From: Diphasiastrum complanatum
Taxonomy: Eukaryota > Streptophyta > Lycopodiopsida > Lycopodiales > Lycopodiaceae
Direction of reading: 5' to 3'
Length of the DNA: 64,000 nt
Assembly (NCBI GenBank): GCA_029204225.1
Contig: CM055099.1
Span: 43,082,597-43,146,596, forward strand
This document shows, piece after piece, positions 2,186 through 50,692 of this stretch (positions within the stretch are counted from its first letter, which is position 1; each line of letters opens with the position of its first letter). Position numbers and translations under genes: made by a program. The notes beneath the pieces were generated by a model. It was given only the letters and a program-made list of their open reading frames with translations. It was not told the origin of the DNA and did no database searches.

Positions 2186-5003
2186 TTTTTTAAAAAGACA
2201 AAAATATGATTTATAAAACTTATCTATGAATTAAGCAAGTTAGATGCAATTATCTTTCCATTGGTTACATGACCTGCAATTGGACTTTTGTCTCATCCAA
2301 CCCACATGTGATGTTCTTTTGTTTAGAACATTTATTTCTTAAAAAAAAACAAAAATAAATAGAAACCTACAAAATTAACATTGCACATTCAACATATTAA
2401 ACTTAGCGAATACAGAATAATCCAAAACATTTTCGCATACCTCATAACAAAAACATTGCATCAATGAATTGGGTTGATCAACCTCTGACAAGTCATTTAA
2501 TTGCTAGATAATCCATGACAATCACATTACAAGCTGCATCAAATAATTAAAAATTTCACTTCATGCAAAAAAACATTGAATATTAGTCAAATAAAAAATA
2601 CAAAACTAACTTCGACTCCAAGTTGCACTTACATTTCAAAATTTGCCACCAAAATAAACTCATTTTCAACAACCTAAAATGACAATAATTTAAGTAACAT
2701 AGTCATACGATATACGATGTTATACTGTCATTAATTATAAAAAAAAATTATATTAAAAATCTTGAATTAATTTCTCACATGTCCATCACTAAGACCTAAT
2801 GTGTCTCCTGACGTGTTACCAATGAAACTCTTTCTTTTGAATTACCTCCACTTCAATTGAATACATGTCAAAATCTAAGCGTATATGTTATTGTCTTTCC
2901 AAATTTATGTAATATATAAAAAGTGCATTTGTTTAATTTCAAAGGACCTTGTTCAAATTAAACCTTTGATTTTATCTTACATTGTTTTATTGTTCTTACG
3001 ATTCAAGTTATGTTCTTCCTTTAACTTACTTCTTTTAACCATCGAACAACACACATATAATATAAATAAATAGTGTGTTCTTTAAAATAAAATTTTAATA
3101 CATGTTTATCATATAATTTTTTTGAGATCTTGTCTATTACTTTTGACACATGAAAGATCTCATCATATGATAAGATCTCCACCATATGTGAATCGACCAT
3201 AGTAAACCCTGAAAATGAGCCTTCAAATCTTATAACTTCATTGATTTTTTTTAAGATCATGAGCATTTTTAATAATACTCGAAATAAATGTGTTCTTTTT
3301 TGTAAGGCTCAAAAATTTTTGAATAGCTTTTTTACCTTGTTCATTTGACAACAAATTTAACAATTTTTAAATTGCAAGGTCTGACAATGCTTTCATACTT
3401 ACAAAAATCGTGGCAAAATGTAAATCTCAATAAACCAAAACAACAATCATCTCTTATTATGACAAGTAAATGTAATGTACCTAGATAAAAAACGAACATA
3501 TATAAACTGAGTAGTTAACAACATTACTTGACAAAGAATTTATTAACCCTAAACTCTAAACCATGATAATTATGTACGTGTTTGATTGTAATTTTTAAAT
3601 GTCATTAATGTATGTATTGTGATTTTTAATACGTGTTTCATATTGAATCATGATTTTTTTTTAAACTTATTATACTCTTTGTTAAATAATGTTATTAATT
3701 ATTTAATTTTTATGTATCCATTATTTATTTCGATACATTACACTTACTTGTCATAGTAACAAATTATTGTTGTTGACTTGGCTTATTGGGATTTACAGTC
3801 TACCACAGTCTTTGTAAATATGAAAGCATTGGCAAACCTTGAAATTCAAAGAATATTAAATTAATTTTTGAATGAACAAGATAAAAAAATTATTCAAGAA
3901 CTTTTGAACCTTACAAAAAGAACACATCTATTTCGAGTGTTATTGAAAATGCATATGATCTTTATAAAATCAATGAAGTTATAAAATCTGAGGACTCACT
4001 TGTATAGTTTATTATGGTCGATCCACATATGGTGAAGATCTCATCATATGATGGAATCTTTCGTGCACCAAAAGTAATAGACATGACCTCAAGAAAACTA
4101 TATGATAAACACGCATTGAAAAAAAAATTAAAAAACAACACTATTTATCTGTTCAATATGTGTGTTGTTCGAAAGTGACTAAAAAAAGCAAAGCTAGAGA
4201 AAGAGCATAACTTAGACCTTAGAAACAATAAAATAATGCAGGATAAAATCAAATGTATGATTCGAACAAGATCTTCTGAAATCAAACTAATGTACTTTTC
4301 AAATGTCACATACATTTGGAAAGAACATGACATATACATTTGAATTTTGAGACGCATTCAATCGAAGAGAAAGTATTCCATGGAAAAAAAAACTCCATAG
4401 GCAGCACTCCAAAAGACACATTAGGTCTTTATAATTAATAGGTGAAAAATCAATTTAAAGTTTTCAATACAGCTTACTTTGCAATTAACGAAAGTATAAC
4501 ATCACACTTTGCAATTAACGAAAGTATAACATCGTATGATTATGTTAATTAAATTATTGTAATTTCAAGTTGCTGAAATTGAGCCCATTGTGGTTAATTC
4601 TATATTTTTTTTATTTGACTAGTATTCGATATTTTTTTGCATGAAATGAAATTTCTAATTATTTGACGTAACTTGTAACATGGTTCTCATAGATTATCTA
4701 GCAGTTAAATGGCTTTTGTCAGAGGTTGATCAACCCACCTCATTGATACAACTTTTTTGTTACAAGATATGCAAAAATATTTTGAATTATTCTGTACTCA
4801 CTAAGTTTAATATATTAAATGTGCAATGTCAATTTTATAAGCTTCTATTTGCTTTTTTCTTTTTAAAAAACAAATGTTCAAAACGATAAATTTAGTTACA
4901 AGTCATGTTACCAATTAGAAAATAATTCCATCTAACATATTTAATTCATAAATAAATTTTACAATTGTTATAAATCATATTTTTGTTTTTTTTTTTTTTT
5001 TAG
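2186..5003. mobile_element. Long inverted-repeat (foldback-like) element, copy 1
   Basis: The two halves are inverted copies of each other around an axis near 3,600. The block at 2,190-2,480 matches the complement of 4,700-5,000, including the shared GGTTGATCAACC. The block at 3,130-3,270 matches the complement of about 3,980-4,110, and 3,410-3,490 matches the complement of 3,715-3,800. Each arm is about 1.4 kb and diverged, so the element is old. Both arms carry remnants of one short peptide pattern (YDxIF...KVID...KLYDKH) also present in copy 2 at 8.4-11.96 kb. No transposase is recognisable. The outermost borders and any target duplication are uncertain. Confidence 0.6.
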
Positions 5004-9101: not shown

Positions 9102-12100
9102 AATAATATCCATGATATTACGCCTCTAAATTTTTCGAAAGCCAACTTTTTATTGAAATAAAAAAACATCTACCTTTCAGAGCTTGTTTCAATTCCGTCA
9201 AAAAAAAATCACAAGATGACTTGTGATGAAACAAGTCTTATATTAAAGGTGAATATAACTACGTTATTTAATGACAATCATGACAAACAAACTTTTGATA
9301 TTCAAACACAAGATTGATTTTAATATAAAAAAAAATTATGAAACATTCATATTGACTTTGAGTAAATATTACCTTTTTTTAATTTTAAAAAAGTGCAAAA
9401 AAATGATAAACTTTGTAATCCTTTCATGTAGACTGAATACACACCTAATGATGAAACATAAATTTCAATAAATTGATTTTATTTGATTGTTAATTTTTAA
9501 ACTTTATTATGTAAACACATTTTATGCATGAAACAATTGATTTTATATATTATTTAAACACTACAAACTAATTTATCATACACATAAATGTCTATCGTGA
9601 TTTTTCATATATGATCATGTGTTATTTTTTATTTATTTTTAATTTTTTTTCATTCATATGCAAAATTAATCTATTTATTCAACAAATTTTCATGTTGAAT
9701 GAAAACATACATGCATAATTTAATTGTAATTATAAAACAAGATTATAATAAAATCAAATTAAATTTGGACTTATTTTTTATGGAACAAATATATTAACTA
9801 TGTAAATATTTTATTTTTCAAATTTCATAACTTCAATAAAAATTAATGACACATGTCATAATAAAGTAGAAATTCATAATATGATACAATTTAAGATTTA
9901 CAGTTTAATATAATTTTAATCATTTTTATACTGGTGTAGTTATATTTGTGATATTCTAGTTGATAATGAAAAGGAAAAAAAACAATTAAAAAAGACATTT
10001 GCACCTACGAGTTATTTTACAATTACATTAGTACAAAAATTACTTTAAACACCAAGCTCTAAACCATATAATTTATTTTGTAAACTCATTTTTTTTTTTT
10101 AGTATTTTGAATTATGTTTTTAATACTAGGCATTTTATAATCTTGATAATTTTTTTACAAATACACAAAACATTGCTTTAAAAAAAATTTATAAATTATT
10201 AAATTTGATTAAAACGTTATTAATTATAATTTTTTATATAGCTTATGAAAATAATGTTACATAATTAAAAAGTGCATTTAGATAAAAATTGTGATTCATT
10301 ATTTACATTTTCTATGTATTTTTCTTGAACATGAAAAGACATTCAAATATTTAAAATCATGTATAATAATAAAAAATTAAAAACAAAATAAATTAACAAT
10401 TAAAAATTTATTTTGTATTTATTATATTCATTGTTTTTATTTGAATAAAAAATTGAAATTTAACATTAAGAAAAAATCACCTTATCATGAATTTGTAAAT
10501 CATCATTACATGTGTCATTGATTTTTATTGAAACTATTTGAGCATTCAAATCTAAAAAAAAAATTAATTTAATTTATATATAGTATTCAAAACATGTCTT
10601 TTTTATAATTATTGTTGCATCATATATGTATAAACGCAAAAATGCAAAAAAAAAATAAGAATTAAAAAAATTGACACGTTCATATATAAAAAATTTATGA
10701 GACATTCAAATGCATAATAAATTAATTTGTAACTTCTTTTTTATACAATTAATATCACATCAATTTGTAAATCAAATTATTCATTGATTTAAAAATTTAA
10801 AAATTAATTAATTAATGCACAAACTGCTTTTACATACAAAAGTTTAAAAATTATCAATCAATAAAATTTAATTCATTAAAATTTGTATTTCATCACTAAA
10901 TACGTATACAACCTCCAAAAAAAAGTTTCAAATTAATCATTCTTTTACACTTTCTAAAAGAAATTTAAAAAAATTATTCACTTAAAATTCAATTTTAATA
11001 TCTTATAAAAAAAAGTTATCAAAACTAGTATTATATTAAATATCAAAGATTTATCTTTCATAATTGTCATTAAATAACACACTTATATTCATTTTTGATA
11101 TAAGACTTGTACTATTACAAATCATCACTCTGTGATTTTTTTTTTTATACTTTTTTTTTGGATGAAATCGAAACAGGCATCCAAAAAGATATATTTTTTG
11201 TTTTCAATAAACAATTGACTCCTAAAAAATGCAAAGATATAATTTTATTAATATTATTTTTTATTTTCTGTTTTTTCAAAAACTCGTGATCTTAAAATTC
11301 ATTAAACTCGCTTTTAAACCACTTTTTTATTTTTTGTAAATTTAATAAAAAATATTGAATGCTGATCTAAAAAATATTCTGCTAAAAAAAATTTGACGTA
11401 TAAATTTATATCATCTCGATCTTTTTTTTTCAGAAGTCGAAAGATTTGATTACATGTAAAACTATTAATCATAAAGCTCTTCAGATTTTCACGATGTTGA
11501 TCACTCTCGTTTAACCTCATCATCATATTATCTTTGAATACAATTTGTAAAAACGAACCTTTACAATTTTTTGTTTTCATTGACAAAAAATTGTTGTAAC
11601 AATGCCTTGAATTTCTTTAAATGGATGATATTTAAAAAAAAACATTAATCATAGTTGTACCGTTCATTTAATCTATAACAACGAAAGCATATACAATTTA
11701 TAAACAACGATTGGTGAATCATAAATTACAGCTTAAATGAATTATTCTGATATTCACTCTTGAATATTAAAAAAAACAATTATGTTATGCGAACAAATGT
11801 CTAATAATTATTTTAAATGTAAAAAATAAAATATACTCCAAAAATATTTGTACTTATTTTACTTGTCAATATAATGAACGAACTAACTACAAATTACATT
11901 TTTACTAAGCTTGTAGTTAACTTTTAGATTGCCAAACTGTTGGTACTTGTTTTATGTCAATATTCCTCTATCTTTCTAGTATCAATAAACTTCCAATTAT
12001 GAAAAATTGTGATACAACAATTTCAATCCCTCCATATAATTTTTTTCAATTACATTTTTCATTGATTTCTATCTTTCATCAAACCTCAACACTACTATCC

Positions 12101-12119
12101 TCATGTTTTTAATTTCCAT

Positions 12120-12430
12120 CTATGTTGAAGAGTTTGTGGATATCGAGGCAACCCTAACCATAATTAATAAGTGAGAGATTTTATACCGTACGTGTGTAAG
12201 TCCAACTCGATGATCTCATAATTAATTGATTAGTTATGAATTAGTAAAAGGATTTTAAGCCTTTCAGCGAGATTTTTAATGTAACAAAGCCTAATAATCA
12301 AATGAGTGAATAAAAAAAATTCTCCTCCAAATTTTCAAATGGATTTTCTTCGATTTTCAAATTATAAATATGTAAAATAGAAATTGGCCAATAGGATTTG
12401 AGGCCAAAGCCCTAAAATTCGATACATAAT
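12120..12430. repeat. Diverged segment with an inverted copy at about 54,140-54,410
   Basis: Shared blocks include the GTGTAAGTCCAACTCGATG-type segment, the run around TAACAAAGCCTAATA, and the ATTAATAAGTGA context. They occur here on the plus strand and on the minus strand near 54.2-54.4 kb. No protein is recognisable. This is part of the outer arm of the large inverted duplication. Confidence 0.6.
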
Positions 12431-12593
12431 AATAGTTTCGAGTTATTAATATTTTCTCTCTTCATTTCAATACAAGCAAGTTGGGCCTCTTATGGAATGG
12501 AATGTCCTTCCACTTTTTTTTCCTCCTCTATTTCTCATGTTTTTTTTGGATTTGCTGGATTTGATGCTTGTTGGAGTTGATCATTGTTATACT

Positions 12594-12599
<6 letters not shown>

Positions 12600-12635
<36 letters not shown>
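12600..12635. repeat. (GA)n microsatellite
   Basis: A short GA tract at the position mirrored by the long (CT)n tract at 53.86 kb in the other arm. It was probably already present before the duplication. Confidence 0.9.
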
Positions 12636-12637
<2 letters not shown>

Positions 12638-12787
12638 TAAAATAAAATCTATCATTGTTTGAGTAGTGTTAATTGTTGAAGTTAATAAATCGTAGTGTCA
12701 ATGCTTAGTATTAAACGTGGATCATATGCATTTACTGGATTATGAACTATGTTACCGCTCTCATGAGAACAAATATCCGCGTGACAA

Positions 12788-13180
12788 CTAATTAATCATT
12801 TTCATCTCTTTGATGCTTGTGTAATTGAATTTAGAATTGAAGGTGAATAGGAAATAGCTGCTACAACCTCTCAATACGGCATGGTGAAACTCAGAGATAT
12901 CATCCATATTTTGATTGTGTTGCATAAGCACAACATCATTTTCCTCAAGCCATGGAGGCACACATCCTAAAAACCTTGGATTTAACAATCTCTTACTAAT
13001 ATTGAGGTCTTTTGTTTCATATGCTATGAACGCGGCAATTCTTTCACACTATTGTTGTCCTACTAGTCAAATTTTGAGGGATAGTTGTAATACAACTCGA
13101 TTCCATCCAAAAAAAAAAGACTATAGTTCCTCCACCAAAGGTTTCATTAATATTCCAAAAACATCACCTGATTTTTGAAC
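12788..13180 (-). pseudogene. Unidentified host-gene fragment, left-arm copy
   Basis: The minus strand can be read as RIAAFIAYETKDLNIS, then NPRFLGCVPPWLEEND, then FHHAVLRGCSSYF. The composition looks like a real protein, but I do not recognise the family. A more decayed copy in inverted orientation lies at 53,390-53,720, where an internal stretch encoding the middle part is deleted. The preserved reading here and its loss there suggest a pseudogene pair or one weakly constrained copy. No splice sites are assigned. Confidence 0.4.
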
Positions 13181-13979
13181 AAATTTTTTGCAACTAAATG
13201 GTTCGTAAAATCTCACTGGTAGAGCTTCTCCCAACATTGAAAATAGCAATTTCATGGATGCTTGAAATCCATCAAAATGTAAAAGTAAGGCAAAATTTCA
13301 TGGATCACCTTGTAAGATGAAAACTAAATGTCCCAAGCTTGAGATTGATTGAGTGCGGTGAATGTTGGGGGTGATAAGGATCAAAATCATTTGCTAGGCA
13401 TTAAGTTTGAGCCATCTTGACTGATGAGAATCGAATTTGAGCTATCTAAATTGCATAAGAAGAATTTGAGCCACTCTACCTCTAACAAGTATAAGGACAT
13501 CTGCAACAAAGAACCGATGCACAAGCTTATGCATCCTCGTAGGTGCAAATGTAATTTGACTGACTCTTTCCCAAGCAGAATGGTCTTAATAAGTAATGCA
13601 AGAGTAATTGCAAATTTGAAAACATGAAACATAATTATGTGTAACCATGTTAAAGCTTTGTAAGTTATTATTCCCAAAATTGGCCAACTTTACACAAGCT
13701 AGAAAGCAAACAATTTGTCATATGTTTGATAATCAGTTCACACAAAAGAATGTAGATTATTTCCTCCTCAAAAACATCTTCTCAAGCTTGTGATGACTTA
13801 CTCTTTTAGCTACTCAAATACTCATATGTCAGATCATATCTAAGTCATTTTGATAAGCGTATTTCTAAAAACTCTACAAATTTGATACATCTGTACAAAC
13901 AAACATACAGTGTTCACCAACTTACAAAACAACAAAAATCGAATTTTCACTCTTTCGCCTTCAAATTCAACAACTACCG

Positions 13980-14002
13980 CAGGGTTTAGGGTTTAGGGCT
14001 CT
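13980..14002. repeat. Short interstitial TTTAGGG-like repeat
   Basis: Contains AGGGTTTAGGGTTTAGGG, just over two units of the plant telomere-type heptamer. It is too short to imply a telomere relic and could be chance. The motif is also common in plant promoters. Confidence 0.4.
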
Positions 14003-14334
14003 GGACACAAGAAATGGACCAATTCGTGGTCTTAGCTATTCGTGATGGCAAGCGTAGTCCAGACCCTATAACCATCCGCTAGGCTTTGTGTACACTTTGA
14101 ATGCACACACAGAGACAAGGTGCTCTGAAATGCCACCACATGATCAACAATGTAAGGTGGGTTTTCTATTGCAAATGGGTGTGCTTACATAGGCACAGAG
14201 GATGCACCATCCTTATAAAGTTAACATTTACTTTTTGCTTGTCATCTGAGCTACTAGTTTGTGAATGAAAAGCCATTCCTTGTTGAAACAATACTTTCGT
14301 CCAGCCAACAACGAATGGTGACAAGAATGAAGTT

Positions 14335-14560
14335 CTAACAGTTTGCATTGGTGCTGAAGGAAGCTAAGGAGATATATACAAGGTATTCTAAATCCATGTT
14401 ATCTGACACATCTCTTACTCTCAATGTCTCTTTATCCGTAGATTGGTTAGATAATAATGGATAAGACTTAAAAGGAGCTAGCTGGAATGCAGTCAGGAAG
14501 GCCAAATAAACCTCACCATCAAGGATAGCTGAAATCTTCTTGCTCAAATGGTTGATCTGT
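14335..14560 (-). CDS. Unrecognised exon-like frame conserved in both arms (left copy)
   Basis: The frame runs from an acceptor-like CACACAG at about 14,560 through INHLSKKISAILDGEVY to NMDLEYLVYISLASF and a stop at 14,335. Its inverted counterpart at 44,839-45,061 differs by only two residues of 70 (K to R and L to S). All four nucleotide differences I see there are transitions. Upstream on the same strand lie another exon-like block (YDPKHVRLEKRKK, about 14,762-14,803, between CTGCAG and GTGCTG) and a possible first exon near 15,750-15,904. I do not recognise the protein. It could be a real small gene or a recently duplicated fragment. Confidence 0.4.
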
Positions 14561-15033
14561 GTGCTGAGGGAAGGCAGAATAGTGAGTGCAAGGACTGAGA
14601 AAACTTCAACATTTTTTCAATTCTTGCTCAGCCTTATTTCAGAACAATAAGATAGCACGAAAAGCTTTCCAAAAATACAAAGAAAAACCCAGTCAAAATT
14701 CTGTCTCAGAACTATCATACCTCTGATTATGGCGACTTAAAAGATGCGTCTTGCCAGCACCTTTTTCTTTTTTCCAACCTCACGTGCTTAGGATCATAAA
14801 CTGCAGAAGAACATGTGTAATGTTAAGGCTTTTGTGGCTTTTTGATCACGTAGCCCTTCCTACTTTTCAGCTGGGTGATCTTTGAAGCTACCACATTAAT
14901 TGCTCACCCAATAATGTACTTGTCGTCCTGCTGCAGCATTCAAGTACTAGCATTTGCAGATCCACAGGCCTCCGCTGCAAAATACGTTGAAGATAACTTT
15001 AATAAAGCTTAGAAAAACATGAGTTCCAGTGCT

Positions 15034-15665
15034 AAGAAGCCACATTGATGCTTTCTATCAGTCAAAAGCTTGAGAAGTCTCTGGAAGTCCGACAGAAAAA
15101 AAACAGGGCCTAAAGATTGGAATGGATTACCAGGCATCGTTCAATTCGGTGAAGAAGAGAGCTGAGGTTGCAATCAAGCTAGAAATGGAGAGGTTTACGT
15201 TCACTGGAAAGGAGCTGCGGAAATTATCTTGGAAATGTGCGACAGGCGGGTTGATGTGGATGGGATAGAGCGTCCATTGGTTGGAAAAAAAAATCCCAAC
15301 AACTCAAGAATGTTATAGCAGGAATGGCAGTTTCGAGCTCAAGGTGTGAGACCCTAGCCTACCGAAAAATAGATCCTGCGGAAGGGCCTGGAAGTGAGGA
15401 AGAAGGAGCGACCTGGAATATGCCGAGACAAACCTCGCTGGAGTTCGTGAAGCTATTGCAACATGCCAGGTTGCTGGTATTAAGGTGCGATGGTAACTGG
15501 CGATAATGTGCTAACTGCCAAAGCAATTGCACAGGAGTGCGTGATTCTTAGACCCAGTATCGATGGTGTTGCCCTCGAAGGCAAAATGTTCAAAAGTTTC
15601 AGTGACCATGAGAGGCTCTTGATTTCACGCAAACTGATCAGCGCCAACTGACAAGCTGCTTTTCA
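15034..15665 (+). pseudogene. Plasma-membrane-type (P2B, ACA-like) Ca2+-ATPase fragment, left copy
   Basis: The fragment covers part of the nucleotide-binding and phosphorylation domains of an autoinhibited Ca2+-ATPase. FNSVKKRAEVAIK is followed, after a frameshift, by EVYVHWKGAAEIILEMCD (HWKGAAE is typical of the family). Then come MAVSSSRCETLAYRK, a Pro-poor [17 protein letters not shown] segment, and [17 protein letters not shown] (the TGDN hinge), ending with [14 protein letters not shown]. The rest of the roughly 1,000-residue pump is missing: transmembrane helices, DKTGT site and calmodulin-binding domain. Frameshifts and stops make it non-functional. No introns interrupt about 500 bases, so it may derive from mRNA. 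It lies next to a copia LTR. Confidence 0.8.
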
Positions 15666-15729
15666 AAAACTAGCATAGCAATTGATTTGCAAGCTGCAGT
15701 TTGAACAATTACCACAATAAAACAGAGAG

Positions 15730-15904
15730 AGATAACGCACCTGCGATGGCGGAAGATCACCCAAGCTGGATTGGTAAGGAGAGCATGACGAGGGCGACGG
15801 TGGACGAGGAGAGAAAGACGAGCAGAGGAGGAGGAGAATAGCGCGCGAAATTTGTCATTAATGAGGAGAGTCAATTCATTGCGGCCAGTTGGCCCCAAAA
15901 GCAA
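15730..15904 (-). other. Possible first exon of the unknown arm gene
   Basis: The minus strand shows an Arg/Ser-rich open stretch (LLINDKFRALFSSSS) ending at CCATCGCAG followed by GTGCGTTATCTC, a good donor-like junction. The mirrored stretch in the right arm (43,559-43,656) keeps the frame start and the junction but lacks an internal segment. It may be the 5' exon of the unrecognised gene read toward 14.3 kb. This is weak and based only on splice-like sequence and symmetry. Confidence 0.25.
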
Positions 15905-15944
15905 TCTCTCTCTCTATTTCATTCATTTCGAGGTACGCATAACA

Positions 15945-16115
15945 CGAGGGGAATGCTTAAGGAGTGCACTCCAGCTCTCTAGTGCTAGGCCCACTCCATC
16001 CAATGGTAATGGATGGACATAAGAAAAAGAAAATCTCTCTCTTCCCTTGGATAGAGTGGGGCCTGTGCAGCAGAGGCATTGGATGTGGCTTTGTGGTGCA
16101 CTCTCTAATGAGAGC
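15945..16115. mobile_element. MITE-like hairpin insertion present only in the left arm
   Basis: Ends resembling AGGAGTGCAC and its complement GTGCACTCTCT enclose a partly self-complementary core: a GGCCCACTCCATCCAA-type block, then CTTGGATAGAGTGGGGCC. The equivalent place in the right arm (about 43,410-43,445) lacks the core, so this looks like an insertion after the duplication, or a loss from the other arm. A related hairpin with GGGCCCTTCCATCCAA lies at 29,880-29,990. A TIR-type MITE fits, but the target duplication is unclear. Confidence 0.5.
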
Positions 16116-16254
16116 CAGGAGGAGGGAGCAGTCCCTCTGGCCTAGAGCCACTTGGTGCACCGTGCAGCACCTCCCATTAGTCGTCCACCGATGTGGCCCG
16201 TGCCATCATGTAAGTGAAAGGTATAAGATGGAGGGCGACTTTTAGTGGTGAGCT

Positions 16255-16475
16255 GATGATTTTTGGATTACAAGCGAGAATTATTGTAAAGCTAACCAAT
16301 GATAATCATAAGCAAAACATCAATGCAAGCATCATAAAGAACACAGACACAAGCCAACAATCCAAAAATTGGGCACACACATCCAACCCACCCCTTAACA
16401 TCTAACCCACCTCTTAATAACTGCTAAAATTAACTATTACTTCTCATGACAAATGGCTTATGAAATGCCCCCTCT
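16255..16475 (-). repeat. Copia 3' LTR and polypurine-tract region (left-arm copy)
   Basis: Just 3' of the RNase H domain on the minus strand comes the purine-rich AGAGGGGGC, a typical copia polypurine tract, then a stretch ending near TGATTTTTGGATTA at about 16,257. The same series is present inverted at 42,925-43,270. The exact LTR borders are not certain because no second LTR of this family is intact here. Confidence 0.5.
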
Positions 16476-19400
16476 ACAAAAGGTCACATTCCCTCTCTCA
16501 TTTCATAATGGAGTAGCTACCCATTCTCATCATTTTGATCTTCTAATCCGAATTGATCTCTTAGTGCTAGAAAACGTTGTTTAACTAGTGGCTTAGTCAT
16601 AATGTCACCCAACACAGGATATGTCTGACATTACTCAAGAACAAGTGTCACTTCCTGTACCATATCACGCACAAAGTGGTTCTCTATGGAAATGTGTTTG
16701 CTTCTCTTATGGAAACTAGCATTCTTGCTGAGAAACAAACAACCCTGATTGTCGTTTAGTAGCTTCATTTATTTGTCTTCAATCCCCAACTCGTTCATGA
16801 GACTCTTCAACCAAACGTACTCCTTGGCCGCATGACATACTCCCATGTATTCCACCTCATTTGATAATGGCGTCGTTAATGCTTGTTTTTTGCTGCTCCA
16901 GCTTATGCAACCCCCATCCATCATGAAGATCTATCCACTCGTAGACATTCTATCATCTTGATCCCCAACCCAATCAAAATTCGCATATCCTATCATTGGT
17001 CCGATCATCCTTTTGAACACCAAGCCCCATTCTTGGCTTCCTTTTAATTATCTTATTATCCTTTTCCCTGCTTTCCAATATTCCTCCCCAACATCTGCAA
17101 GAAATTGACTTACCTTTGTCATGGCAGTGGCAATATCTGGTCTAGTGATTACCATGGCGTACATCAAAGACCCAATTAGCTTCCTAAATGGTCGCTGGCT
17201 CATGGCTTCCCTCTCTTGTTGTGATGTGGGACACAATCTAACATTCGGGTCTAAAGGTGTACTTACTGAGAATTCACCCTACTTTTTGAACCTGTCTATG
17301 ATGGCATTTATGAACTTTTCCTGCCCCTTCCATGTTCTCTGACCCTCTTAATCTGAATACCTAAGCAGAAATGAATCTCTCACATATCTTTCATTTCAAA
17401 TTTGCCTCTCAAAAATTGTTTCACATCTTCTATTTTCTCTTTACAGTTTCCAATGATGATTATATCATCTACATATAGCGCAGTTGTTATGAAAATTTCA
17501 TCCTCTCTTGAGACGTATTCGATGTTATCAGAGTGACATCTCTTAAATCCAATGCTTAAAAAGAATTCATCAATCTTCAAGTACCACATCCTGGAATATT
17601 GTTTCAATCCATAAAGAGCTTTCTTTAGACGACATAGCTTTTGGGTACCATCTTCATAGCCCATCGGTTGAGTCATGTATACTTCTTCCATTATTCCCCA
17701 TGTAAAAACGTTGGTTTTATGTCCATTTGTTCTATTTCCATATCCATTATAGTGGCCTAGGAAAGCAGTAGACTTAATGAATCCATCTTGATGGCTGGTG
17801 CAAATGTCTCTTGATATTCAACTCCTTCAATCTGACAAAAACCTCTTGCAACCAAACATGCTTTGATCCTGTCCACGCAGCCGCTTGCCCCATACTTTAC
17901 TTTGAATACCCATTTGCTCCCGATGGCCTTCCTGCCTAGGGGTAAATCCACCAGTTCCCATGCTTCATTTGATTCAATCGATTTCAGCTCCTCATGCATT
18001 GCCTCCTCCCACTCGAGGTTTTCTCTGACCTCTTTCCATGTCTCGGGTTCCCCGACTTCACAAATGCCTTGATTTTGTCCCACGAGTCTCTACACAATGT
18101 ATCTTCTTGGTGGTCTTCTCTCCCTCGTCGACTTCTTAACTTGTCTTGGTGTATCCTCTTCCATTAGTTGCGCCATTCCTCCCTCCTGGTCTGCTTCCTA
18201 CTTTATTCCTTTATTGCCATCCTGAAGATGTATAAGAAAACCTTTCTACTGAATTCATCAATGAATGTTAGGAAATACTTGGATTTTGCTAGTGATTCGG
18301 GCGGGATCCATTGGTCCACATATGACAGTGTGCACTAATTCTAGTAAAGTGTTGGTATTCACTCCTGGTCTCCTTTTGAACGACTCTCTATGTTGTTTTT
18401 TAAGCACGCATGCTTGACAAGTGTATGCATCTCCCTCCCCGTTGTAATCCATTCATGTCACCAGGTCACGTTTCCACATGAGGTTCAATATGTTTGCCCC
18501 TACAAGTCCGAGTCTTTTATGCCATATGGCATTCTTCTTGGTTCTAGCCATGGCCTCTTCGCCCAGTGCAGATGAATAAACAGTAGTAATGTTCAATAGA
18601 ACAAAAAGTATTGTGAAAAATGTACTCGTAATAAAAATTAGCAGGTGAGTACATGGGCGTGAAGCTGATGAGTGCAATTCAGTAGGACTCTGATATTTTA
18701 GAGCTTCCGTCTCTATATAGATAACTAACTAAAAACATATTTATTTACAAGATATTTTCAAGTCTTTCACGTCAATGCTTTTCTACCTACTTAATTAATT
18801 ATAGCTGCCTTTTAAGTAATAAAGACTATGTACAAGTAGCTGAACTGCCGTAAATTCTTGGCTTGACTTTTCTCTGATGACAAAGTCAGGTTGTTCGGCC
18901 TAGTCAGATTGTTTGGTCTAGTCCATTGTCGGCGGTCTTAGATTTGTCGACTACCTCATATTTGTCGACCGAGTCAGATTTGTCGGTTGAGATAGAATTT
19001 TTTAGGATGCTCATTACCAAATGGATTTAGTCCTGAGCATAGAAATCCAACATTGGTAACTTGAGAAACAACTCATGTTGTAGGTAATATGACATGTAGC
19101 CCCGGAATCCAAATACCAGTTCTTATCTCCATCGTGCTTATCCCCTCCCTCGGCTCCCTCAATCGTCAGATTGCTTTGTGCTCTGCCCTCTTTCTTGGGT
19201 GTCATCTTCAATCTTGGACCATAGAGATGACATATCTCTCCCTCTTCACTCTCATCGCTCAATTTTGCCATGAGTGCTACGTTCTATAACTTTTCTTGTT
19301 GCTTCTCCTTTCTTCTACATGTCTTCTGTCTTTTTTCTTCTAGCTATGTGTCCTGCAATGTTGCAATAATAGCATATAACATTTTTCTGTCTTTCTTGAT

Positions 19401-23744: not shown

Positions 23745-26700
23745 TCAAAATTTAGGAGTCCTTTTCAATTTTATATGCATAGTTGACGTGCCCATGTGCT
23801 GACGAGTGTAGAACTCTGAAAAATCCAATCGGAAAGAAAGAAATTTCAGGTCTACATGCTGCTGCACAGGGAGCTGTGCAAAAAATCCCTCCAGCAAAGA
23901 TGAATATTCAGCTGCAATTACATCCATCTCTTCCCCCATGCTTGCCAAAAGCTCCTTAGTAAGTTGCACAGTTGGGAGCTTCCGGAATCCAGTATTGTAT
24001 GGTACACTCGCCTGAAGCTCTTTAACCTTCCTTCTGGCAGCAATTTCACCCCTACAAGCAAAGAAAGTTAGATTCAATAGCCAAGGATTCACTACAAATA
24101 GAACATATCTCAAGTTTGTTCCCTAACTCTACAGCAAAGTACCCAGTTTACGGTAAAAATTTGAATTCTGCAACAAGTATATTTCCTGACATGTTGAAAA
24201 ACCTCCAATCTAGGTCGTGTCAACGTCATTATAACGCAAGTTGAATGGAAATACAAATATAAAGACAATATGCATGACCCTTAATATGCAGCCGGCTTGG
24301 CAAAAGCAGTATACAATCTTCTAGAAAACTAACATTGTTGAAAAAGCAAACGACAAAGTTTTAAGAATGTGTTAGATGATGAGAGCCATTTCTAAGATCG
24401 GTTCTAAGTGGGAAGGTTCTATCATAGAGCAGCTGAGGACGAGAAAGCTAGTTGCCGGGCGGGAATCAGTGAATAGGGCATACAATTAAAGCAGTGGATA
24501 GGGCAGTATGATAAATTGTTAGAAGCTAGAAGTTGGTCCAAGCGACAGGCAACAACAGGCACACTTAGTCCACGACTTCTTTGATAGGCTCTAGCTCCCC
24601 TGTTGTCTTATGTGTATACAATTTGCTATCATATTCATTAAATGACTAGAGAGGCAGAGCCACAGGATGTTGTGCAGGTATTCATTGAGAGCTTAGTAAT
24701 TACTACTTTCAATAATTGAATTGCAGTTTTTGCACAACGCAAACTACAAATCCATTAGATCTCAATGCCCAAACTTTGAAACTTGATTTGCTCATCCAAG
24801 TTGTGCATTGTACAGATTGTCATTGACAATGGGGAGAATTATATTGCCATGGGGAACCCCGTCAATGAGACCTATTCCTCACATATTTTGGATGTGTATG
24901 CTACAAACTGCCTAGACATCCTGTTGGAGAATATTTTAAGGAGGTGGCTGACACAGCACGGTTCTTGGTGAAGTTTTTCACTAAGGGACAGAGGATGTCC
25001 TCTTTATGTTGAGGACCTATCCTCACCTGGAGGTTCTGAGATCTACCCACAACAGCTTTGCATTTATGCGCATTGTTTTGAAGTGGCTCCTGAACTTGAA
25101 AAGGGAGGCCACACATATTAGAACCTCATGATTTGAGTAATGCTCATGCTTAATCTGCACCCGAAATCTTAAATAAGCAATTTTATAGTTGGCAAAACAA
25201 TAAAAATTGATTTCTTTTGCAAAATTAGAAAGCCTAAAAACTGATTCGATTTGGTTCTTGGGCTTCTGATTTGAATCGGTCAGATTCAAACAGCCAATTT
25301 GAATCGGTTTCCTTCTAATCTCTCTCTCTCTCTGGCACCATTGAGGAAGTCAAGAAGTTTTTGACGGATACACTTCAACATCACGACACCAGCCTTGATG
25401 AAGCTTGGGGTACCAAAAAGGATGGAGAAACGTTGGTTATACTTTTCCTGTCAACAGAACATAGGAGGGATGTACTCTACCAATGAGCTAACTTGACAGA
25501 CACTCGTATCTTTCTGGACAAAGAGGTAACTTTTGTACAAGTGGAAGAACGTAAAAATGCTCGGCAAGAGGCTAAAGACACAGGGAAACGTTTTATTAAC
25601 AGAGACAGGATCGGATTTGTTGAGAATAGAGTTAAAGAGTTAGAGAAATGAAGAGTTGTTCAATTGATCTGTAAATGGTCGCAGTACCACATTCCTGAAT
25701 TAGATACCCTCGCTTCACAGGCAGGTTGAATCTAAATTAGGGCCACATGAATATTTATGAAGCCAGTATGGTACAATCTTGGAAGCACAGATTTGGCCAT
25801 AACAAAAGGCAGTACCAGCAAAAACAAAGCCAAGTCCACTAGATTTCTACTCCCCCCCACACACATGTGGCATATGTGAAGAATTTATAGATTAGCACAC
25901 ATGCTTGATTGCAACAGAAGCTCCCATATATGTAAGAGAAAACTTTATGATGCCAAACTTTATAGATGTAGGGTAGGAGTGACAACTACAAAGAAACCAG
26001 CTGGGCAAGAATATCTATCAAAACTTGTCCAATTAGCCATTCCTTTAGCTTGTAGCAACAAAGTGCAAACTGAAAAAATCTAGAGCAGAGGTTGCATATG
26101 CGGTGAAGTCTTTGTCAGATCACCTTGCAAAAACAGAGGCTTTTGAATACGCTCTTAACAGAGATGAAAGGAAATATGCTAAGTTCAAAATTAGTGTTCT
26201 CAAGCTGCCCAGTTTCACATCCAAAATTTGCAGAGAAAGTAGTGCTTTCTACAAGAAAATTCATTGCAAAGGAGAATACCTGGTCTGAACTTCACGTGCA
26301 TTTTCATAAAGACGGTCGGCCAGGCCCCGAAAACGTAGGATGAGATCGAAAAGCGTAAAGAGCGTCTTACAAAGAAGCTGAGATCTCTCTCCAAGGAGGG
26401 CTTTCTCAACGATAGAGCTCAGATATCTCTCGTGTGCTACTATGAGTTCATCTAAATCATGTGCTTCCTCCATCTCATCCAAAAAATTAGCCCAGGAGTG
26501 TTCTAATACTTCAAACATGATGTAATATTGCAAATTCGTAACAAAATGATTCATCTCATTTCTTAAAGTCTGGCATCTTCTCATAACAGCTGCAAGTTGG
26601 GATTTAGTTCCCCCGTCTATGGAAGCCCAAAGTCTAGCTATTGAGCAGTTTGGCTTCATGGTCTGCCATGTTGCACTCAATGCATGATCGACACACCTAA

Positions 26701-28660
26701 GCCTCCACAGAAAATTGAAGATCCGTAGATATCGGGCCATCACGAACTCGGTGAATATTGTGGTCAAGGGATCACGTGCATTATACTCTAAAGAAAAAAC
26801 ATCCCAACCTCTGTCCCCTTCATTATGGGGCATCATTCTGACCCTTAACCGATCCAAAACATCACTATCATCATACTGTGCATTTGAAGACCTGACTGCA
26901 CTCTCCAGCAACCCAGCCAGTTTGAACGAACTTACAGTATTTGCTGGCTGTGATAAGTCGGGCCCAACAAGATCCATAAGATACTGAATAAAATCACCCT
27001 GACCCAACAGCAAATACCTCTTTATTGCAAGACAATGCTCCCGAAATTTGTATTGATCATAAATTATCCTGATAAGGTGCCTATCAATCCTAGCTGCCGC
27101 TTCCACTACCAAAGCCTCTAATGTTTCCGTTTCCCCATATCCAATGCCACCTCCACCTGCAGGAGTTCCAGCAGCTGCCAGAGCATCAGCTGCTGCAGTT
27201 GCCCAGCCCTGGTCTTCGCAACAAACCCGAAGAAAGTTGATTGACTTACCAGTCCTCAGTATACGCTGAGCAAGAGGCTCTGGGATGAAGGAAGGAAGCA
27301 TGCCAGTCTGAAGCTGATAACCCTCCCTCCACAAAGCCTCTGCCTTGACAGGCTGTGGAACAACAAAAAATTCTCCATAGAGATCGTCAATCTCCCCTTC
27401 AAGTACCCATTTTCTAACCATCTCAAAGAGAGGTGAACAGACTCTCCTAAGGAGACTCCCCATGAATCCTCTGACTAGAGGATCCCCGTGCTGAGCATGC
27501 ATGTGTATTGCCCCTGCCATTGCGCCACCTCTCAAGCTTTTACAGTCATCCACCAGCACTGCCATTAATCTCATCCTCACCAGTGGCTCTGCCAGCCAAA
27601 CCCAGAGTCGCCGCAAAGAGAGATAATTCCCAGCACCTTTTGCCCCCTCGACAGTAGACATGAAAGGAATTGGATTATGAAGTTGAGCTTCAAGAACTGC
27701 CATAAGTCGATAGTAATCCGAGAGTTCCTCCTGCAAAGCAGCACAAAATGCTTGCCCTACGGTCCCAATGACCTCCATTGGACCTTGCTCAAGGCTTTCT
27801 GTGATGTGCTCTTTCACACGCCTGTAAAGCCAGCCTACCTCGCACAGCCTACGGATGAGAACTTTCGTAGCCTTGGGAAGTTTTAAATTATCATTCACCT
27901 TATAACCATCTATCTCCTTGTCAAATTTTATATAGCGCCCGTCAATACCTTGGCAAGCATACACCACGTCCCTCACTAAAGCCATTTCTGTGACTTCCGA
28001 AAATTCTTGATTAAGTTCAACATATTCCCTTAAGGCAGCAGCTTTCAAATTCTCGGCATCTTTCGAAAGAAGCAACATTCCCCCTGGAGCTAGGCTTTCT
28101 TGCTCTGATGCATAGCCCTTTTGGAGATTTGCGCTCCTCTGAGCCCTTTTGGGAGCGTACACAGAATCGGAGACTCCATTTGACAACCGTGCCTTGACAG
28201 GGGAGTCGGGCAAAGCAGCCAAACCCCCTAAAGCAGCCGGGCGAGAGATAGTGGATGTCAAAGGACCTGCAATACCCCTAGTTTCTGACGGCTCTCTACG
28301 TTGATCCTCCGAGATCGCTTTCAGAAGATACAGCACTGACCATCTGTTTTCTATGGAACCTGCCCCACTCAACGAGGAAAACCTCCGATGCAAATCGGCA
28401 AAAGTAAGGGCATCAGAGGATCTGCCCTCCAACACAAGCTGCCTCTTGACAGACTCCGCCATTGCGGCCTCATCGTTTGCCAGGGATGGAACGATGCGGC
28501 TACCGATGATCCGCATTGCGTATTTATGGGCTCGCTCCACGACATCATCAACAACTTCTCCATGGCTTCCAGCACCATCCTCCGCAGACTTGCTTCTACT
28601 GGGAAAGATCCTTAGAACCAACTGTTTTACTAAACCTGACACCACCTCCCCTTCCATCAT
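23745..28660 (-). CDS. GCP3: Gamma-tubulin complex component 3 (GCP3/SPC98), two coding exons
   Basis: GCP3 joins gamma-tubulin and GCP2 in the complex that nucleates microtubules at the nuclear surface, cortex and spindle. Exon 1 runs 28,660-26,280; exon 2 runs 24,051-23,745. They join across a 2,228-base GT-AG intron that splits an Arg codon (AG|G). The product is about 895 residues. The Spc97/Spc98 N-terminal region starts near residue 207 (ALREYVELNQEF) and includes NYLSLRRLWVWLAEPL (about 346-360) and GYQLQTGMLPSFIPEPLA (about 447-465). The C-terminal region starts near residue 545 (IKRYLLLGQGDFIQYLMDL). Exon 2 has EYSSLLEGFFAQLPVQQHVD, typical of plant GCP3. The start is the first of two tandem ATGs; the second has the better context (ATGG). 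The last residues (STMHIKLKRTPKF) look like a species-specific tail. The frame is intact. Confidence 0.95.
24783..25130 (+). pseudogene. hAT-family transposase-like relic (DUF659 region)
   Basis: The plus-strand reading IVQIVIDNGENYIAMGNPV, then LDVYATNCLDILLENI, matches the pattern of plant hAT-type transposases. There the sequence is roughly VVTDNGSNYV, followed about 20 residues later by an A-x-H/N-C-x-D-L-x-L-E motif. A decayed continuation (HLEVLRSTHNSFAFMRIV) fits the next conserved block, normally LLRPxxTRFAT. The reading is frame-broken, with no termini found. It lies within the GCP3 intron, antisense to the gene. Confidence 0.55.
25345..25650 (+). pseudogene. Unidentified decayed coding stretch in the GCP3 intron
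   Basis: On the plus strand, one frame gives TIEEVKKFLTDTLQHHD and then, after one stop, LTDTRIFLDKEVTFVQVEER and ARQEAKDTGKRFINRD. The length of near-open reading (about 100 codons with one or two stops) and its composition suggest a decayed protein gene, perhaps a retroelement ORF1-type protein. I cannot assign a family with confidence. Confidence 0.35.
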
Positions 28661-29420
28661 CAATCTGCTTTGAAAAGCACTTCAAAAACTGCTCCATATT
28701 ATTTGCATTCAGACGTTCCCACGCACAACCAGTTGATCTCTAAACTATCTAAATCCCACAAGCGGCTTACCATCTTAACAGGTGGAATGCATGCAACGTC
28801 AAATCTTCATCAATGTAAGAAGCGGAAACCAATATCTAGTAGGGTAAACACTTATCTGCAGCAGAAAGTAATACCTCTGCAGATTACCGTACTTCTTTGA
28901 CGAGAAAATTTGTAAATAAGTAATCAAGATCTTGTGCTGCTGCGTCCATGTGGAGTGAAGACAAACCTAGCAGCCATCTCAGTTACGCAGAATGAAGCAG
29001 CAGCACCATGAGTCTGCAGAATGACAGAAAAATAAGGAGAGGTTGAGGCTGAAGACAGAAAGAAACGAAGAAATTCATTGAAATGGGCACAATGCAAAGA
29101 GCAGAAAATAGAGTTCCCATACAGACAGGAGTGAAGAAATTTTGCATAGATCCAAGCTTTTCTGATGATCCTTCGACTGCAATCCGCTTCGGCGATGGCG
29201 AGATCTTCCAGAAATTTTTGTGGTTTGATCGAAAGAAATTTATCGTCGCCCGAAAACTGACACACACAAAACTGAACCAGTGACAAGACGACGAACAAAA
29301 ATGGCGGGGTAAACCCCTGGTCACGCAACCAGTCAAAATGATGGCCCCACCAAATATTCTTGGCCCCTTGGGACTTCAACCCACCCCTCAAAGCCCCAGG
29401 GGCATCACCCAAGTGGTCAC
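28661..29420. promoter_or_regulatory. GCP3 5' flank: probable 5' UTR and promoter
   Basis: This is the stretch immediately upstream of the GCP3 start on the minus strand. No convincing TATA box was identified. A GC-richer portion up to about 29,410 could include the transcription start or a 5' non-coding exon. The open frames seen here have no recognisable domains. The assignment rests on position alone. Confidence 0.35.
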
Positions 29421-39300: not shown

Positions 39301-42294
39301 TCTTTCTTTTCTACATCAGTTGTTAGGCACATATCCTTCGACAGTTTGAGTCATGGGTCCATAGGCGAGTCTATTGACTTGTAATTTTTCATGCCATACC
39401 TGTAGAGTACACTAGTTAGATACCTTTCTTGGCTTATCGTGATACTTTTGTTCGTTCTATCTCTAGTTATCATCTCAATTCCCAAAAGGTAGTGCACAAG
39501 ACGTGAATCGATCATTTCGAATTTCTTCGACAAAAGTGACTTTGTCTCACGAAGCAAGTGATTTGAATTGTTGATGATCAGAGAGTCATCAAATATAGAG
39601 CTATTATGACATAGCTTGAGCCTCTGTGTTTGAGATAAACATTAGAATCAACAGAGTTAGGAATGAAGTCGTGCTGCAACAAGAATCAATTGATTCTATC
39701 GAACCAGGCCCTTGGAGCTTGCTTTAGCCTATACAGAGCTCTTTCCAGCTTACACACCTTATGTTCTTGGCCTTGAAGAACGTACCCTCAGGTTGATAGA
39801 TGTAGATGTCTTCTTGTATGTATCCATTCAGAAAAATAGTTTGAACATCCATCTGGTGAACTTTCAGATCTTCGGCAACTGAAGATCGAATTGATTGAAG
39901 TTTTACGACTGGACTGTAAGTCTCAGTGTAGTCAATTCCATAGGTTTGTTCATAACCTTTGATGACTAGTCGAGCTTTCCGTTGGGCTATCGAACCATCT
40001 GGATTAAGCTTCAACTTGAAGATCCACTTAGTGTTGATTATTTTTGCATCAGGAGGAGCTTCGACAAGACACCAGGTCTTGTTCTTTATCAATGAATTGT
40101 ATTCAGCATGCATGGCAGAATGCCAGTTGTCTGCATTTGAACTCGACAATGCTTATGCTATTGAGGCAGGTTCATCGTTGTTGATGAATGCACGAGGGGT
40201 AAAATGATCAGGCTCTTGTCGATGTCGAGTAAATCTTCGGACAATAGTTGGTTGCCGAGATGATGATTCTCCTTGCTATGCGACATGGGTATCTTCGATG
40301 TTTGTTGGGACAATCGCAAGTCGAGGCCTGTCGATGGTGATGGGAGTCGTTGGAACGAACTCTTGCATTGGCTGCTTCTGCTTGAAGTCGAAGAATCTGT
40401 CTTTGAGGAAGATGACATGTCGACTAACTAAGATACGACTTGACTCGACATCATAGATTCGATAGGCTTTGTGTGATGTCGAGTATCCAGTAAAGATACT
40501 CTTGCAGCTGACAAGGTCAAGCTTCTTTCTCAGATTAGAGGGAATATGTACATAGCAAAGATAGCCAAACACTCGAAGGTGTCTTAGAATCACTTTTGTA
40601 GCGATAGAAGACTTCGAAGGGAGTCTTTAAGTCGAACATATCGATCGTGCTGCATTGAGTAATGTTCGGTTCTTCCTTTCGGCTACTCCATTCTGCTGTG
40701 GTGTGTAGCTAGTGGTGACCTAATGATGAATGCCGAGCGATGTCAGATAGTCGAACATTTCGTCTAATAGAAGCTCTCCACCATTGTCTGTACGCAGTGT
40801 CTTGAGTCGTTGACCAGTCAGTGTCTCAACAAATTGTTTAAAATATTTGAAACAGCTGAATGCCTCAGACTTGTTCTTAATGAACATAATGCTGGTAAAT
40901 CTCGAATAATCATCAATAAAAGTGATAAAATATATTGCCGAACCAAGAGATGGAATGCTCATAGGGCCACACAGATCACTATGTATCAATTCTAGAATGG
41001 ACTTAGCTCTAGTGGCTTGTCCATTTGGGAATCTTGATCTAGGCAGTTTGCCTAGGAGGCACATCTCATAGACATGTCGAATGTCAGTGGAGACAATATT
41101 AATGTTTAAATCTTTGACCATACTATTGTGATGCATGTACAATGTTTAAGTGTCCTAATCTTTGATGCCATAATTGGGCATTCGAAGTGCTCACATTAGT
41201 AAAAAGTGCATATTCGTGACCCATAATGTACAAATTACCTTCTTTGTTTGCAGAGAGGACTTCTTTACAATTCTTATCCGAAATGGTACATTGCTTCGAA
41301 TTGAACAAGGCTATGCAGCCCTGATCAATGAGCTTGTTGACTAATAATAAAATTTTGGTTAGTTTGGGTACGTAAAATACATCCTTGAGCAAGCTCAATT
41401 TACCATCTGGAAGATAATTGCCTTCAATATGTAGTGCACTTGAGTTACTGAAGTAGACATACTTCGAATCTGCTGATGTGAGGTCTTCGAATAGGGACTT
41501 ACATGAAGTCATATACTGATAAGCACCAGAATTGAGATACCAATCCATTGCATCTCTAATGGGTTCATCTTGTACATTAGTAGAGTTGGGTCTTTTTGAG
41601 AGATTCTGGCAGAATCATATCCTCCATCCTGCTGCATCTTTTTCTTGGCTTCATTGTGTCTGAGAACTCGACAATCCTTGATGTCGTGATTGGTTCTCTT
41701 GCGGTACTTGTAGAAGAGTCTGGTCTTAGGATTTTGATGTTGTCGATTGTGCTGTTGTGGTTGTTGGTCTGAATTAGTCTGCTCAACTTTTGTCTTCTTG
41801 TCCTTCAAAGATTTCTTCTTCTAGAGTTGTTGCTTATTCGAGTAAAGAGCGATTGTCTTTGAATTCGACGTAGATAAGCTTTTCCTTCTTACTTCTTCCT
41901 GCAACAAGGTTGTTGTCACCTTTTGAAGAGACAAATCAGGAGCATTGCTAAGTGGCAATACTACATTGTCGTAAGAGAGAGGAAGACTGGATAGAAGAGA
42001 CATGTTAGCATCTTTGTCCGATACTGGCGGACCTATTGCAGCTAACTGATTGAGTAGCTGTTTGAATTTGTTTAGATGATCAATGACAGAGGTCCCTTCA
42101 CTCATCTTGAGCGACAATAACTTCTTTCTCAATAACTTCTTTCGTATAGAACAGTAAGAATGTCCCATGCCTCTTTGGAACTGGAACAATTAGCTACATG
42201 AGCTATTTGTGAATCTTTAAGATTCAAATATACAATGACAAGAGCTTTGCCATCTTTAGCTTCCCAAGTGGTCAGCATGTCAAGTTTAGATGGC
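39276..42294 (-). mobile_element. Truncated Ty1/copia element (family D), gag to RT
   Basis: On the minus strand gag starts at the right edge (SSKEAWDILTVLYE, SLKMSEGTSVIDHLNKFKQL). A decayed zinc knuckle lies near 41,690. The protease is near 41,500-41,540 (WYLNSGAYQYMTS; the Asp of DSGA is replaced by Asn). GAG-pre-integrase follows (LWHQRLGHLNI, VYEMCLLGKLPRSRF). The integrase core has HSDLCGPM, FITFIDDYSRF and TLRTDNGGE (41,030-40,740), and its C-terminal part lies near 40,590-40,420. RT has KWIFKLKLNPDGSIA, TETYSP and MDVQTIFLNGYIQEDIY, then after a gap KKFEMIDSRLVHYLLGIEM (39,520). It is cut at both ends: gag abuts the inverted-duplication arm at 42,295, and RT ends at the palindrome. 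No LTR remains. Confidence 0.88.
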
Positions 42295-42295
42295 T

Positions 42296-42920
42296 CTAAT
42301 TGGGTTTTTGATGTACGCCATGGTAATCACTAGACCGTATATTGCCATTGCCATCACAAAGTTAAGTCATTTTCTTGCAGATCTTGGGGAGGAACATTGG
42401 AAAGCAGGGAAAAGGGTAATAAGATACTTAAAAGGAAGCCAAGAATTGGGCTTGGTGTTCAAAAGGATGATCGGACCAATGACAGGATATGCGGATTTTG
42501 ATTGGGTTGGGGATCAGGATGATAGAAGGTGTACGAGTGGATAGATTTTCATGATGGGATTGCATAAGCTGGAGCAACAAAAAGCAAGCATTAACGACGC
42601 TATTATCAACTGAGGCAGAATACATGGGAGTATGTCATGCGACCAAGGAGTACGTTTGGTTGAAGAGTCTCATGAACGAGTTGGGGATTGAAGACAAAGT
42701 AATGAAGCTGCTCAACGACAACCAGGGTTGTCTGTTTCTCAGCAAAAATGCTGGTTTCCATAAGAGGAGCAAACACAATTTCATACAGTACCACTTTGTG
42801 CGTGATATGGTACAAGAAGGGACACTTGTTCTTGAGTATTGTCAAACAAATCCTTTGCTGGGTGACATTATGACTAAGCTAGTTAAACAACGATGGGAAT
42901 GGGTAGATGCTCCATTATGA
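42296..42920 (+). pseudogene. Copia family A RNase H fragment, right-arm copy
   Basis: The plus strand gives LIGFLMYAMVITRPYIAIAI, LGEEHWKAGKRVIRYLKGS, GYADFDWVGDQDDRRCTSG and then, past a stop, TEAEYMGVCHATKEYVWLK and GDIMTKLVKQRWEW. This is the C-terminal end of a copia polyprotein and the inverted equivalent of 16,500-17,179. It is followed by the purine-rich AAAGGGGGC tract at 42,949-42,957. Confidence 0.88.
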
Positions 42921-43739
42921 AATGAGAGAGGGAATGTGATCTTTTGTAAAGGGGGCATTTAATAAGCCATTTGTCATGAGAAGTAATAGTTAAGTTTAAC
43001 GGTTATCAAGGAGTGGGTTAGATGTTAAGGGGTGGGTTGGATGTGCGTGCCTAATTTTTGGGTTCTTGGCATATACACACGGTGATGTGTGAATGGGACA
43101 TCTTTTTGGCATGTATTGTGAGCGTGTATTTAACGTTAAAAATGTCGTGTGACACACATCCTTTTGTCTATCATTAATGTGTTTGTGTTCTTTATGATGC
43201 TTGCATTGATGTTTTGCTTATAATTATCATTGATTAGCTCTAGAATAATTTTCACTCGGGATCCAAAAATCATCAAGCTCACCACTAAACGTCGCCTATC
43301 TTATACCTTTCACTTACATGCTAGCACGGGCCACATCGGTGGATGACTGATGGGGAGGTGCTACACGGTGCACCAAGTGCCTCTCGGCCGTAGGGACTGC
43401 TCCTCCTATGGTACTTTGCTCCTCCTATGGGTAATTCGAAATGTATAGGATTACTTCAAAATGTGTGTGAGAGAGAGAGAGAGAGAGTTGCTTTTGGGGC
43501 CAACCATGAATGGGTGCTTTTTTGGGAATTCTGGCGCAATGAATAGACTGTTGAATGTTCTCATTAATGACCAATTTCGCGCGCTATTTTCCTACTCCTC
43601 TCCTCGTTGCTCGTCTTTCTCTCCTCGTCCACCATCGCGATCTTCCGCCATTGTAGGTGCGTTATCTCTCTCCGTTTTATTGTGGTAATTGTTCAAATTG
43701 CAGCTTGCAAATCAATTGCTATGCTAGTTTTTGTAAAGC

Positions 43740-44390
43740 AGCTTGTCAGCTGGCGATGATCAGTTTGCGTGAAATCAAGAGCCTCTCATGGTCACTGAAA
43801 CTTTTGAACATTTTGCCTTCGAGGGCAACACCATCGATACCGGGTCTAAGAATCACGCACTCCTGTGCAATTGCTTTGGCAGTTAGCACATTATCACCAG
43901 TTACCATCGCACCTTAATACCAGCAACCTGGCATGTTGCAATAGCTTCACGAACTCCAGCGAGGTTTGTCTCGGCATATTCCAGGTCGCTCCTTCTTCCT
44001 CACTTCCAGGCCCTTCCGCAGGATCTATTTTTCGGTAGGCTAGGGTCTCACACCTTGAGCTCGAAACTGCCATTCCTGCTATAACATTCTTGAGTTGTTG
44101 GGATTTTTTTTTCCAACCAATGGACGCTCTATCCCATCCACATCAACCCGCCTGTCGCACATTTCCAAGATAATTTCCGCAGCTCCTTTCCAGTGAACGT
44201 AAACCTCTCCATTTCTAGCTTGATTGCAACCCCAGCTCTCTTCTTCACCGAATTGAACGATGCCTGGTAATCCATTCCAATCTTTAGGCCCTGTTTTTTT
44301 CTGTCGGACTTCCAGAGACTTCTCAAGCTTTTGACTGATAGAAAGCATCAATGTGGCTTCTTAGCACTGGAACTCATTTTTTTCTAAGCT
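43740..44390 (-). pseudogene. P2B (ACA-like) Ca2+-ATPase fragment, right copy
   Basis: Inverted copy of the left-arm fragment with the same frame breaks. FNSVKKRAGVAIKLE and EVYVHWKGAAEIILEMCD lie at about 44,260-44,140. [15 protein letters not shown] is near 43,860-43,900, and [13 protein letters not shown] near 43,760-43,800. The residue after KKRA is Gly here and Glu on the left; Gly is the usual residue in the family, so the right copy is closer to the ancestor at that site. It is non-functional for the same reasons as the left copy. Confidence 0.8.
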
Positions 44391-45973: not shown

Positions 45974-46002
45974 TGTTAGAAATCCATAAATCATAATATG
46001 GA

Positions 46003-50626: not shown

Positions 50627-50692
<66 letters not shown>

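Follow-up and report, generated by a model that had tools for sequence, protein, structure and literature searches.

In Diphasiastrum complanatum, two inverted copies of a 3.6–3.7-kb block lie 25 kb apart and are diverged throughout, except across a core of about 1.2–1.3 kb in which they are nearly identical. We interpret this island as the outcome of recent non-allelic gene conversion from one inverted arm to the other, following duplication and neutral drift; we put the probability of this reading at roughly 80%, and it is from sequence comparison that we infer the recombination mechanism. Arm-to-arm conversion had been proposed in an earlier note on this DNA, and the finding of one sharp, significant island amid uniform flank divergence supports it.

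Inverted arms and their surroundings

The window, which is the whole stretch of DNA analysed here, comprises 64,000 nt (Diphasiastrum complanatum C8:43,082,597–43,146,596) within a nuclear genome of 1.74 Gb. The arms were delimited by blastn and MAFFT, each against the other, and the spacer was annotated from reading frames and Pfam:

13,511–17,179, plus strand: arm A, probably the source of the inverted duplication
17,180–42,295, no strand assigned: spacer; it holds Copia-like frames as well as a gene for a gamma-tubulin complex component
42,296–45,861, minus strand: arm B, the inverted copy

The gamma-tubulin complex component gene is an 806-codon frame on the minus strand (26,261–28,681), and both PF17681 and PF04130 were found in this one frame. 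Within the arms, positions 15,875–16,119 of A are non-homologous to B save for a 28-base CT-rich match, and this interval was omitted from the mismatch counts. A dispersed repeat (13,321–13,637) crosses one border of arm A, and the match to it in arm B stops within the arm, about 31 bases from the border. The other border of A is crossed by a Copia reading frame (17,048–17,278); in B the Copia sequence stops at the border. Because both sequences run across the borders of A and end at or inside those of B, arm A is the likely source of the duplication and arm B the copy.

Several further features were observed in the window. Outside the arms, 10,684–13,131 and 53,395–56,120 share an inverted, AT-rich similarity of about 70% in palindromic order that was absent in a reversed-sequence control; they may represent an earlier, outer arm or else an AT-rich repeat in more than one copy. 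A 2.8-kb foldback (2,192–4,992) matches its own reverse complement at 72.7% identity, and the reversed control gave a match of only 33 bases. Just outside arm B lies a Copia-type element (46,121–52,412) with an RVT_2 frame on the minus strand, located between direct repeats that are 92% identical and are likely to be its LTRs. Beside arm B we also found a tRNA-Thr-like sequence (46,003–46,075) with the anticodon GGT, which is unusual in nuclear tRNA-Thr; it is possibly an organelle-derived or SINE-like piece. An aminotransferase class-III frame occupies 61,192–61,578 on the minus strand. Elsewhere in the assembly, the locus pairs L005/L006, L014/L015, L020/L021, L022/L023 and L024/L025, each of 3.1–3.5 kb, lie on the same chromosome 0.2–20 Mb apart and are 98.5–100% identical, and L027/L028 form a similar near-identical pair, but on two different contigs. 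Such pairs are probably uncollapsed haplotypes or false assembly duplications, or else recent large duplications.

An island of near-identity in uniformly diverged flanks

Alignment of the arms divides the block as follows, with coordinates on arm A unless stated:

13,511–14,299, plus strand: diverged left flank, 60 of 757 sites mismatched (7.9%)
14,300–14,468, plus strand: intermediate zone, the soft left edge of the island, 4 of 168 sites mismatched (2.4%)
14,469–15,640, plus strand: strongest part of the identity island, 5 of 1,171 sites mismatched
14,300–15,640, plus strand: maximum-likelihood extent of the identity island, 9 of 1,339 sites mismatched
15,641–15,874, plus strand: proximal part of the diverged right flank, 14 of 199 sites mismatched (7.0%)
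16,120–17,179, plus strand: distal part of the diverged right flank, which holds a Copia retrotransposon fragment (Copia-like frames), 85 of 1,001 sites mismatched (8.5%)
43,757–45,095 of the window, minus strand: arm B counterpart of the island (alignment coordinates)

In total, the flanks differ at 159 of 1,957 sites (8.1%), and their three parts are homogeneous in divergence (p = 0.76). The number of mismatches per flank block has a mean of 3.97 and a variance of 4.13, a Poisson-like distribution of the kind that uniform drift predicts. Pfam identified RVT_2 in a frame (17,383–17,817) that adjoins the distal right flank.

The best-fitting cold segment (14,300–15,640) holds 9 mismatches in 1,339 sites, compared with 166 in 1,967 outside it, and its log-likelihood gain of 61.4 far exceeds the maximum of 10.3 reached in 200 permutations of sites. 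When the arms were divided into 65 blocks of 50 sites, the lowest 23 consecutive blocks contained 6 mismatches, a value that was reached in none of 20,000 block permutations (minimum of 21). The longest runs of complete identity span 530 bp (14,469–14,998) and 335 bp (15,166–15,500), and the strongest part of the island carries five substitutions and one indel between the arms. Expressed as corrected distance, the core stands at 0.0043 (95% interval of 0.0014–0.010) and the flanks at 0.086. This ratio of about 1:20 points to recent homogenisation of the core.

The earlier note had described a sharp change of divergence within the duplicated block, and a proper alignment bears this out, giving an island set in uniform flanks instead of uniform divergence along the arms. 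Its count of three to four differences over 14,561–15,500 agrees with the 3 mismatches that we find at 939 aligned sites, to which one 1-base indel near 15,096 is added. That the flanks are diverged was likewise correct, but the figure of 8–12% was slightly high against the measured 7.0–8.5%.

Make-up of the core and competing explanations

A genome search with the core as the query returned at least 17 matches; among the matches listed, only the two arms cover the whole core, and the remainder tile it as a mosaic of four other genomic places. Together with a gene-related stretch in the left flank, the parts are:

13,909–14,255, plus strand: left-flank stretch related to PQQ-type dehydrogenases, about 72% identical to a C10 gene and in part also similar to a C3 gene
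14,314–14,471, plus strand: first part of a stretch related to C16:33.04 Mb, 84.6% identity
14,469–14,817, plus strand: stretch related to C8 (37.0 and 39.4–39.6 Mb), at and beyond the 3' end of frames resembling methyltransferases, 75–85% identity
14,818–14,965, plus strand: second part of the C16:33.04 Mb-related stretch, 86.7% identity
14,967–15,063, plus strand: C20:40.16 Mb-related stretch, identity of 89.8% in arm A and 91.8% in arm B
15,068–15,660, plus strand: pseudogene fragment of an autoinhibited-type Ca2+-ATPase, 77% identity to a relative at C1:1.47 Mb (arm A, gaps counted)

The two C16-like parts are adjacent to each other on C16 and are separated in the core by the C8-like stretch. 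On frames of the C10 locus, Pfam found PF13360 and PF01011, and PF13578 was present at L011, the one methyltransferase-like locus on C8 that was put to Pfam; one C16 frame and one C20 frame gave no family match. As judged by these similarities, the arm is a head-to-tail mosaic related to several places in the genome, at least three of which are genes.

Three single-frame pieces of the core had no Pfam match at E 0.01, and the identity of the pseudogene rests on nucleotide and translated matches to genes on C1 and C13. The C1 relative is a stop-free frame of 1,108 codons with the Pfam domains CaATP_NAI and Cation_ATPase, from which the fragment differs by substitutions at 62 of 588 sites. We used the C13 gene to polarise the changes: at the 461 sites where C1 and C13 agree, 35 changes are shared by both arms (7.6%), 2 are private to A and 1 is private to B. 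For comparison, 333 sites of the left flank that could be set against the C10 gene show 16 changes private to A and 10 private to B, a pattern indicating that both arms have drifted there.

The alternative to conversion that survives best, although we regard it as quite unlikely, is that the core is younger than the duplication and was inserted independently in both arms, or in one and then copied over to the other; this second route is itself gene conversion. The maximum-likelihood island lies within 14–20 bp of both edges of the C16-to-ATPase mosaic (14,314–15,660), a near-coincidence that counts against conversion between older arms and would be expected if the core came in as one piece. 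Such a late arrival has to contend with homologous flanks that, in each arm, adjoin the core at either end. It must also accommodate the decay of the ATPase fragment, as the 7.6% that is shared by the arms exceeds the approximately 4.3% per arm that has accrued since the duplication (half of the corrected flank distance of 8.6%), so that at equal rates the fragment would be older than the duplication; this decay may, however, have built up elsewhere before a move. Finally, the mosaic overhangs the strongest part of the island, and the overhangs are more diverged than that part (6/175 versus 5/1,171, p = 0.0012; 4/155 at 14,314–14,468 and 2/20 at 15,641–15,660), but the edges of the island are themselves set at mismatches. 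With the two bounding mismatches removed, the count falls to 4/173 (p = 0.020); if the maximum-likelihood island is used instead, the right edge alone overhangs (1/19, p = 0.13). Separate later insertion of the core, which the earlier note had raised, is thus disfavoured by the adjoining flank homology and the older-looking shared decay, and the edge divergence test adds weak evidence.

An artefact, in which assembly or polishing overwrote one arm's core with that of the other or made the two alike, retains a small probability because near-identical locus pairs do occur on the same chromosomes of this assembly (L005/L006, 100%; L014/L015, 99.9%; L020/L021, 99.9%). The core of the arms nevertheless carries the private changes noted above, which can be polarised with outgroups, and no haplotypic duplicate of it appeared among the matches listed in the genome search. 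Reads should, moreover, easily tell apart arms that are diverged by 8%.

Purifying selection on a functional core, whether protein, RNA or regulatory, could in principle keep the arms alike, and it would accord with the high identity of both copies and with the derivation of some core parts from genes. We consider it very improbable. Set against the C1 gene, the ATPase fragment carries nine indels that are the same in the two arms, and five of these disrupt the frame; the substitutions common to both arms are distributed 12:12:11 over codon positions 1, 2 and 3. On the strength of this even spread and the shared frame-breaking indels, the fragment decays neutrally and without constraint, and we reject selection for the pseudogene part. 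The other stretches of the core are about 8–15% diverged from the nearest relative found, and Rfam, run across the window, gave no family at the gathering score save one tRNA outside the arms. For the half of the core formed by the pseudogene, neutral and frameshifted decay therefore contradicts the selection alternative in the earlier note.

We dismiss as having a negligible chance, and reject, the idea that cytosine deamination speeds the decay of flanks that are methylated and transposon-like but not that of the core: the right flank does hold Copia sequence and transitions make up 99 of 164 flank differences, but the left, proximal right and Copia flanks are equally diverged, and transversions, which deamination does not produce, are by themselves less frequent in the core (2/1,149) than in the flanks (65/1,959) by a factor of about 19.

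Order of events and comparison with known systems

With gene conversion as the preferred reading, a 3.7-kb block, itself a mosaic from several places joined to a Copia piece, would have been copied from A, in inverted orientation, to a site 25 kb away, after which neutral drift in both copies would have set them about 8% apart. More recently, one arm would have served as the repair template for the other over some 1.2–1.3 kb, erasing the differences between them by non-allelic gene conversion in a single tract or in a few overlapping ones. The five substitutions and one indel in the strongest part would have been gained since then and amount to about one-twentieth of the flank divergence. The 2.4% zone at the left edge (14,300–14,468) is at odds with a single clean tract and suggests more than one conversion event. 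Given that this zone borders the tract and that the tract edges lie at mosaic edges, the pair may even be a recurrent conversion site, with homogenisation repeated and bounded by the mosaic edges; exchange between the arms might then also flip the 25-kb segment that carries the gamma-tubulin gene, as a polymorphic inversion. We regard this extension as unlikely.

Non-allelic gene conversion is already well known as a process. The island offers a clear example of apparent conversion in the nuclear genome of a plant, acting on neutral DNA, and it is a clean one because the tract holds a dead gene, the decay of which can be traced by comparison with relatives whose frames are open. A further lesson is that duplication dates taken from a short near-identical stretch can mislead, here by about twenty-fold.

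Pack-MULEs carry captured gene fragments between long terminal inverted repeats, and the ends of Helitrons are 5' TC and 3' CTRR with a hairpin. The arm has the appearance of captured fragments strung together, as in Helitrons and similar transposons, and transposon capture may have assembled it; its mosaic of gene-related stretches resembles the gene-fragment-capturing transposons (Helitrons, PMC3288121; Pack-MULE and CACTA, PMC1947982). It differs from them in that neither arm region contains long inverted repeats, the longest being 19 nt within 13,000–17,400 and 21 nt within 41,900–46,400, although the true ends of an element may lie elsewhere.

Large ampliconic palindromes have long arms, identity above 99% and a short spacer. 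The arms described here, at 3.6–3.7 kb, with about 92% identity outside the island and a 25-kb spacer, do not suit the label of a large palindrome that the earlier note had brought up; an arm identity above 99% is also the value given in PMC8981503. A closer parallel is found on the W chromosome of Salix purpurea, for which PMC7023750 describes a 3-kb region without differences between arms inside older palindrome arms. Both cases concern inverted copies in a plant with a limited conversion patch in older arms; the willow palindromes, according to the same paper, are two in number, span 200 kb and lie on a sex chromosome, whereas the arms in D. complanatum are 3.6–3.7 kb long, 25 kb apart and made of decayed fragments.

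For non-allelic gene conversion in yeast and rodents, PMC3924818 gives average tracts of 200–500 bp. The present tract is longer, at 1.2–1.3 kb, and several events may therefore be needed to account for it; it also differs from the conversion between duplicates described there in including a dead pseudogene. In its other properties, namely a significant island, homologous flanks of one uniform age (p = 0.76) and a pseudogene part for which constraint is discounted, the locus has the marks of a conversion tract, and it shares with the duplicates in PMC3924818 a sharply bounded stretch of near-identity within uniformly diverged paralogs.
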